This document shows, piece after piece, positions 5,486 through 8,334 of a stretch of DNA of 32,846 bases. The stretch lies in NCBI GenBank assembly GCA_020073185.1, contig JAIQFT010000047.1, positions 1 through 32,846 of the forward strand. The letters are read 5' to 3'. The translations under genes and the position numbers were made by a program. This DNA comes from Terriglobia bacterium (GTDB taxonomy: Bacteria > Acidobacteriota > Terriglobia > Terriglobales > Acidobacteriaceae). Under the pieces are notes generated by a model. It was not told the DNA's origin. It made no database searches and saw nothing but the letters and a program-made list of their open reading frames with translations. Each line of letters begins with the position of its first letter. The stretch's first letter is position 1.

Positions 5486-7096
<1,611 letters not shown>

Positions 7097-7606
7097 GTGA
7101 CGCACCACAGCTCCACCCTGAACGTGGGGAATCGCGCGCCGGAGTTTACCCTCGCGTCGGCGAACGGAATGGGCGAAGTGTCGCTCGGGAAACTGCTGCT
7201 GAGCGGGCCGGTGGTGGTCGAATTTCTTCGTGGCACCTGGTGACCGAACTGCGTGCAGCGCATGGCTCAGGTTGAGCCAAGCAAGGAAGAATTGACGGCG
7301 CTGGGAACCTCGCTGGTGTACGTCGCGGCCCAGAAGCGCGGTGGGATGTTCCATCCCGAAAAATATTTCGCTGAGCATCCGATCTCATTTCCATTCCTGC
7401 TCGACGAAGATCGGCGCGTCACCAAGGCGTACGGCGTTTACCACGCCATCGGGTTGGACGCGCTCCGTATCGCGCACCCGGCGACGTTCGTGGTGGAGCG
7501 CGGCGGAACACTTCGCATGATTTATGTCGGCATGGGCCAGAGCGACCGCATGCCGGTACAGGCAATTCTGGAAGTGCTTCGGGCCATCCCGAAGGAGGCG
7601 AAATGA
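7097..7606 (+). CDS. Candidate selenoprotein: AhpC/TSA thioredoxin-fold protein with in-frame TGA (UxxC)
   Basis: Reading from GTG 7097, with TGA 7241-7243 decoded as an amino acid, gives a 169-residue AhpC/TSA (redoxin) protein. It has the N-terminal VGNRAPEFTLASANG, strand VVVEFLRGTW, residue 49 = TGA, then PNCVQRMAQ, and continues to a normal stop. In this family the position after RGTW is the redox-active cysteine of a CxxC/WCPxC site, so TGA replaces exactly that residue (UPNC). Cys52 is the only cysteine. No other stop or frameshift is present, and the gene ends in an ATGA overlap with the next gene. A hairpin with bacterial SECIS geometry follows (see 7260-7282). The expected role is thiol/peroxide redox chemistry. 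The alternative is a Cys codon mutated to TGA. An in-frame stop 18 nt upstream limits the start; there is no strong SD. Confidence 0.75.
7260..7282 (+). promoter_or_regulatory. Candidate bacterial SECIS element
   Basis: TGGCTC (7263-7268) pairs with GAGCCA (7274-7279) around the 5-nt loop AGGTT. An A-A mismatch and two further G-C pairs (7260-7261 with 7281-7282) extend the stem. The loop begins 25 nt after the TGA at 7241-7243, within the 16-37 nt spacing described for bacterial SECIS elements, and carries the GGU apex seen in the fdhF element of E. coli (loop AGGUCU), where SelB binds. The hairpin lies within the coding sequence, as bacterial SECIS elements do. Confidence 0.65.
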
Positions 7607-8334
7607 ACAAGGCATGGGTACTGCTTCTGTGCGTGGCAATGGCTGCGCTGGCGGCGGCGCAAACCGAAAAACCGAGCGCCGCCAGGACGCGGGACAAAAC
7701 TCCAGCGGTCGCGGCGGAAAGACCCGACCTGGCCGCAATTTCTCCGGCGGCGAGCAGTGTGGAGCCCATGGCGGCTCTGCCTGCGGGAACAACGGTAACA
7801 ATGAAGCTGGAGACGCCGATCTCAACCCGTACCAACAAAGCCGGTGATCGCTTCTCCGGCCGCGTAACCGAGGCGGTGACGCTGAACGGGCGGACGATCA
7901 TTCCGGTCGGCGCGGCACTGGAGGGCAAGATCGCGCGCGCCGATGAGCGCCGCCGGATTCGCGGTACCCCGACCATTGACTTGCGACCGGAGACGGTCAT
8001 CATGCCCAGCGGCGACCGCTACGCGCTGAACGCGGTCATCGTGGACACCGACGCGCGGCCTGAGGTGGAGGTCAATGACGAAGGCAAGCTCAAGGGCCGC
8101 GGCCACGACCGTCGTGACTGGGAACAGACCGGGATTGCCAGTGGTGCCGGGGCCATTACCGGCGGCGTGATTGCCGGCGGACACGGCGCGCTGATCGGCG
8201 CCGGCGTGGGCGCGACCGCGTCGGCGGTGCACTGGCTCTGGAAGCGGCGTTCCGCCGAACTGCCCGCGGGAACCGAGATCATCATGGAACTGAGCCGTCC
8301 GATGTCGCTGGGCGCAAGCGGCACCGGCCAATAG
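7603..8334 (+). CDS. Exported protein with glycine-rich transmembrane segment
   Basis: A 243-residue protein with a Sec signal peptide (MNKAWVLLLCVAMAALAAAQ), an Ala/Pro-rich linker and a beta-rich domain (LPAGTTVTMKLETPISTRTNKAGDRFSGRV). The phrase LPAGT.I.M.L..P.S recurs near the C-terminus, suggesting an internal repeat. Residues about 180-212 form a glycine-zipper-like hydrophobic segment (GAITGGVIAGGHGALIGAGVG). Such proteins are common in Acidobacteriota and are probably envelope-associated; no function is known. It overlaps the preceding redox gene by ATGA, so the two are translationally coupled. Confidence 0.85.
   Translation: MNKAWVLLLCVAMAALAAAQTEKPSAARTRDKTPAVAAERPDLAAISPAASSVEPMAALPAGTTVTMKLETPISTRTNKAGDRFSGRVTEAVTLNGRTIIPVGAALEGKIARADERRRIRGTPTIDLRPETVIMPSGDRYALNAVIVDTDARPEVEVNDEGKLKGRGHDRRDWEQTGIASGAGAITGGVIAGGHGALIGAGVGATASAVHWLWKRRSAELPAGTEIIMELSRPMSLGASGTGQ

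Follow-up and report, generated by a model that had tools for sequence, protein, structure and literature searches.

The locus and its reading frame

The window, by which we mean the whole stretch of 32,846 nt analyzed here (contig JAIQFT010000047.1 of a Terriglobia bacterium), carries a gene for a redoxin-like protein whose reading frame is crossed by an in-frame TGA. The features of the locus are listed below.

5486..6976, minus strand: divergent upstream gene for enolase (TIGR01060, 682.7 bits; the match begins at residue 64 of the longest ORF)
7061..7089, plus strand: promoter-like block, TTGTGC (7061-7066) and TAAAGT (7084-7089) with 17 nt between them, its end 7 nt upstream of the GTG
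7097..7606, plus strand: predicted selenoprotein gene running from a GTG start codon to a TGA stop; 169-residue product with a redoxin domain and Sec at residue 49
7241..7243, plus strand: TGA, predicted Sec codon for residue 49, shared by all 26 close relatives and by 13 of the 15 distant matches
7250..7252, plus strand: TGC, Cys52 of U-P-N-C, the predicted resolving Cys, invariant in the 26 rows of protein alignment A1
7263..7279, plus strand: SECIS-type hairpin by published bacterial SECIS rules, TGGCTC-AGGTT-GAGCCA, loop at 7269-7273
7603..8334, plus strand: downstream gene of 243 aa, overlapping the preceding stop as ATGA

Between 7097 and 7606 on the plus strand, the frame contained no stops besides the TGA at 7241-7243 and the terminal TGA at 7604-7606. 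The 169-residue product obtained by reading through the first TGA matched Pfam Redoxin (PF08534, E 3.8e-19) and AhpC-TSA (PF00578, E 1.5e-18), and both matches spanned the TGA. Residue 49 and Cys52 form the active-site motif W-U-P-N-C. The product therefore combines the UxxC motif with the PF08534/PF00578 domain, the two features that define the Redoxin/Prx-like thiol:disulfide oxidoreductases. An initial annotation of this DNA had stated that readthrough unites one redoxin domain with no further defect, that a Cys lies at +3 from the TGA, and that the ATGA coupling downstream is intact. All three statements agreed with our analysis, in which the terminal TGA overlapped the next ATG (7603-7605) within 7603-7606. 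The truncated ORF, given there as 118 residues, was however 117 aa long when called mechanically, starting from GTG 7253. A standard gene caller would report the enzyme as two pieces, and the window protein stayed below the cut-off of every NCBIfam model, so that mis-annotation of this gene is likely.

For the 243-aa downstream gene, no Pfam or NCBIfam match passed the cut-off; a match to Gly-zipper YMGG in Pfam was weak and sub-threshold. Its homologue follows the selenoredoxin gene in at least 22 of the 26 close relatives described below, and an enolase homologue lies upstream in at least 19 of the 26. These neighbor counts are lower bounds, because the loci reach about 1.5 kb on each side and some stop at contig ends.

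Conservation of the TGA and the selenocysteine machinery

Close relatives were defined by a match of E 1e-39 or better, which was found in 26 of 200 genomes of the order, the window's own genome included. A contig scan added the contig of L051, the sole locus it returned, so that the close relatives, not counting the window gene, numbered 26. Each of them carried TGA at the identical codon. L046, one of the 26, had a frameshift downstream of the TGA and was excluded from A1; the other 25 were 50-88% identical to the window protein. Twelve positions were invariant in all 26 rows of A1: R45, G46, T47, W48, residue 49, C52 and R55, and also Q58, I125, A126, P128 and A129. No Cys form was observed at the residue-49 column among the close group, which suggests that Sec is functionally needed there.

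Among the matches listed, the strongest below the close group were CPYC proteins with 38-42% identity (L047-L050). In a profile search of 396 genomes of the phylum, 19 matched at E up to 1e-20, four of them belonging to the close group. The column was TGA in 13 of the remaining 15 (L056-L067 and L070) and TGC in two CPFC proteins (L068 and L069); because the column of L068 is TGC, the TGA counted in its match sits elsewhere. An in-frame TGA at the redox-active position is thus conserved among homologues. The initial annotation had given Cys as the family's residue at this position. This holds for the wider redoxin superfamily, as represented by the CPYC and CPFC proteins, but Cys was not observed there in the close group.

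Other variants were seen at the margins of this set. The distant relative L066 (position 1630) reads FYRGFW-U-GAC instead of UPNC. Among the matches listed, seven weaker redoxin matches of 30-34% identity had one in-frame TGA each (G124, G098, G004:C113, G023, G007, G123 and G079:C125), and these are possibly further selenoredoxin families.

In five pairs of genes, dN/dS was 0.20-0.42 before the TGA and 0.13-0.58 after it. The highest values came from the nearest relative, L051 (0.42 before and 0.58 after), where they are only moderately low and few changes have accumulated. As judged from these ratios, purifying selection acts on both halves of the gene in each of the five pairs, and the half after the TGA is constrained in frame.

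These results bear on whether an ordinary CxxC redoxin gene has here been interrupted by a nonsense mutation or by an error of assembly. The halves of the gene are separated by a single in-frame TGA alone, the window's genome is a draft in 121 contigs, and L046 is frameshifted after the TGA, as such an origin would allow. The TGA, however, occupied the identical codon in all 26 close relatives, whose aligned proteins were 50-88% identical to that of the window, selection acts on both of its flanks, and the gene is associated with Sec genes across genomes, as described below. We rejected a pseudogene or an assembly error on the conservation of the TGA in independent copies and on selection, and consider that there is hardly any chance of either. 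TGAs at random positions in decayed frames, which the initial annotation had named as the mark of a pseudogene, were not seen in the 26 close relatives, save for the frameshift after the TGA in L046.

The assembly that contains the window is 4.66 Mb long, with a listed completeness of 100% and a contamination of 0.03%. It contained tRNA-Sec (66.8 bits, anticodon tca, over the cut-off), selB (366 bits, cut-off 242), selA (555 bits, cut-off 268) and selD (365 bits, cut-off 125). The search for these four genes had been proposed in the initial annotation, where absence of selB or selC would have spoken for a pseudogene; all four were present in the same assembly, which is the Sec machinery of a bacterial selenoprotein producer. 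Across the sample of 200 genomes, with selA matches counted at E up to 1e-20, selA was found in 25 of the 26 genomes with a close orthologue, and the 26th (G144) had selB over the cut-off. Among the 174 genomes without a close orthologue, 64 had selA (Fisher p = 3e-9, a value that ignores phylogeny).

The selD gene of the same genome (L018, C65:6893-7837) has its own in-frame TGA in the context AAG-U-ASK, that is U-A-S-K, of UxxK type. This agrees with the entry for SelD as UxxK in PMC13188914, and SelD itself is probably a selenoprotein in this genome.

TGA is decoded otherwise in some bacteria, so the codon could in principle be read as another amino acid such as Trp, or by near-cognate readthrough. 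The 117-aa downstream ORF also has a GTG at 7253, from which a second half could be translated separately and cooperate with the first. However, TGA terminates the window gene and the genes of several relatives, which indicates that it is a stop in these genomes, and tRNA-Sec, SelA, SelB and SelD are all present. The site, moreover, is the redox-active Cys position of the CxxC relatives. A non-Sec reading or two cooperating halves therefore seem very improbable. The initial annotation had proposed true Sec decoding, and the machinery genes together with the TGA in all 26 close relatives support this. With a probability of about 0.95, we consider 7097-7606 to be an intact selenoprotein gene whose UGA would be read as Sec. 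SelB, bound to the hairpin, would bring Sec-tRNA to UGA 49, and the product would be a 169-residue Trx-fold protein with a Sec49-Pro-Asn-Cys52 active site.

The SECIS-type hairpin and the upstream region

Hairpins were scored with a scripted, contiguous-stem version of the published bSECISearch rules, with an energy rule of -7.5 kcal/mol; the rules for bacterial SECIS elements are given in section 5 of PMC13188914. The hairpin reported earlier as GGCTC-AGGTT-GAGCC, with its loop 25 nt past the TGA, was located at 7263-7279 at that same distance. Its most stable contiguous form has an extra A-T pair and a 3-nt GGT loop at 26 nt, and at -9.0 kcal/mol it agrees with the published rules including the energy rule. 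When the same peptide was recoded synonymously, an equal or better hairpin appeared in 9 of 300 recodings, so that a chance origin is unlikely, though possible for one gene alone.

The recoding and energy test took in 34 TGA loci, leaving out six TGA loci identified afterwards. The recoding fraction had a median of 5.8% and was at most 10% in 22 of the 34. The limit of -7.5 kcal/mol was reached with a contiguous stem in 16 loci and missed in 18, and a contiguous hairpin was absent in five. L066 is without a contiguous hairpin by the scripted rules.

In these genes, the synonymous codons of the hairpin are biased toward pairing. Of the 26 Ala codons in the stem, 20 were GCT, compared with 61 of 473 in the remainder of these genes, and all 26 Glu codons of the stem were GAG, compared with 147 of 271 outside it; p-values for this bias are optimistic, because the sequences are related. 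A C/A mismatch in the stem, arising from a GCC codon, was found in five of the 27 close loci (L029, L033, L034, L035 and L038). Covariation within the close group was weak, the observed score being matched by 31 of 500 shuffles, and the stem had two paired changes, one in L044 (G-C to A-U) and one in L039 (U-A to C-G). Consensus folding of the alignment with RNAalifold reached only -4.2 kcal/mol. When pairing was scored in a fixed register over 40 TGA loci, 10 of the 13 distant loci had 0-3 of the 6 pairs. In four loci, L060-L063, a stem of 6 bp with a 4-nt loop is shifted by one base from this register; it was found by the script in L061 and L062 and by eye in L060 and L063, and its arms differ (TCGCGC/GCGCGA or TCTCGC/GCGAGA-like), with the same AGTT or GGTT apex.

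Upstream of the gene, 22 of 27 loci contained TTGnnn and TAnnnT separated by 17 or 18 nt, with 7-10 nt between the second element and the start codon. The tighter pattern TTGT-N18..21-TAnAGT was present in 20 of the 27 loci, against a mean of 0.025 loci in mononucleotide shuffles; this shuffle figure applies to the tighter pattern and not to the loose form, and the 27 loci are related, hence the 20 are not independent cases. A generic sigma-70 scan of 6980-7130 called no promoter. An additional TGGTTC lies upstream of the promoter-like block in 13 of the 27 loci. We also considered a selenium regulon and rejected it: the strict upstream pattern, the one form searched, occurred only once in the window's own genome.

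The position of the conserved block 7-10 nt from the start codon suggests a leaderless or nearly leaderless mRNA, and the block may be a leaderless-mRNA promoter or a conserved regulator site. From the spacing, transcription would probably start at the start codon or a few bases upstream of it. We offer, as a tentative model, that this redoxin subfamily is Sec-only in the close group and found here only in Sec-using genomes, and that its mRNA starts at the start codon or no more than a few bases away from it. If this is true, Sec insertion must operate on a leaderless message, and stop-or-Sec at codon 49 would control the enzyme together with the coupled downstream gene. The predicted start would allow SECIS decoding to be tested on a message of this kind. 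Our literature search, which listed 8 of 659 papers, found no description of leaderless bacterial selenoprotein mRNAs, an absence that is not firm.

Likely chemistry and relation to known families

The best solved relatives by profile were the Bcp thiol peroxidases 2cx3 (E 4e-16) and 2ywn (E 5e-13), followed by ResA 3c71 (E 9e-12). Residue 49 aligned with a Ser of Bcp 2cx3 and with the first Cys of the ResA CPHC motif, while Cys52 aligned with the Cys of 2cx3, which we take to be peroxidatic, and with the second Cys of ResA. The invariant P128 fell, in all 26 rows, on the Arg column of Bcp, presumably the catalytic Arg, and on a Pro of the thioredoxin family protein 3kcm, which we assume to be the thioredoxin cis-Pro; the ResA alignment stops short of this column. 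The AlphaFold2 model, a confident one (pLDDT 86.1, pTM 0.86), has a helix beginning at residue 50. No signal peptide was seen by eye in the 169-residue protein, and the selenoredoxin is therefore probably cytosolic.

Provided that the protein is a selenoprotein, thiol:disulfide exchange is the chemistry that we favor somewhat from these alignments. Sec49 would act as the nucleophile, and Cys52 would resolve the selenenylsulfide. The Pro at the Bcp Arg column makes a thiol:disulfide selenoredoxin of the dithiol type somewhat likelier than a classical peroxidase; this reading is weakened by the best solved relatives being Bcp and not ResA. A selenoprotein acting as a peroxiredoxin-type selenoperoxidase would fit the higher rank of 2cx3 and 2ywn over 3c71 and the placement of Cys52 on the Bcp Cys in the 2cx3 alignment. 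Against it, the Bcp Arg column is Pro in all 26 rows, Sec occupies the site that is Ser/Thr in Bcp, and known Sec-Prx are listed as TxxU in PMC13188914. We regard a selenoperoxidase as possible, with less than even odds. The TxxC-type motif and active-site Arg of Bcp/PrxQ peroxiredoxins were not found in the 26 rows of A1.

The thiol:disulfide selenoredoxin proposed here would be a widely conserved selenoprotein in a lineage scarcely mentioned in the available parts of the selenoprotein reviews PMC13188914 and PMC9312934, in which the string "acidobacteri" had no match. Acidobacterial selenoproteins as such are not new: PMC1794560 gives a count of four, in three families, and PMC12013277 names three known selenoprotein genes of Occallatibacter riparius. 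No description of the present acidobacterial redoxin subfamily was found in the literature, although this absence is not firm.

Compared with known systems, the window protein is covered over nearly its whole length by its best solved-structure match, the Bcp/PrxQ protein 2cx3. It differs from Bcp/PrxQ in having Pro and Sec at the Arg and Ser/Thr positions, and it scored 33 bits against NF006960, where the cut-off is 140. The GTW-C-P-x-C of the ResA/TlpA-type proteins aligns with its GTW-U-P-N-C, Sec replacing Cys, and the score against NF002854 was 42 bits for a cut-off of 170. ResA is membrane-anchored, whereas in the window protein no signal peptide was seen by eye. The SelL-related redox protein model NF040769 gave weak matches to every one of the 26 members of A1, the window protein scoring 45.3 bits, below the curated cut-off of 120. 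The motif of SelL is UxxU, unlike the single Sec in UxxC found here.

The nearest counterparts are two predicted selenoprotein families (published representatives HEU0032618.1 and WP_010940744.1), compared here by domain and motif. With the Prx-like thiol:disulfide oxidoreductases (PF00578, UxxC/UxxU), the window protein shares PF00578, UxxC and the likely chemistry. With the Redoxin family protein (PF08534, UxxC), which PMC13188914 and PMC9312934 tabulate among predicted selenoprotein families, it shares its best Pfam domain and UxxC. Redoxin selenoproteins of the UxxC type are thus already known, and the window gene is, by its sequence, very probably a well-supported new member.
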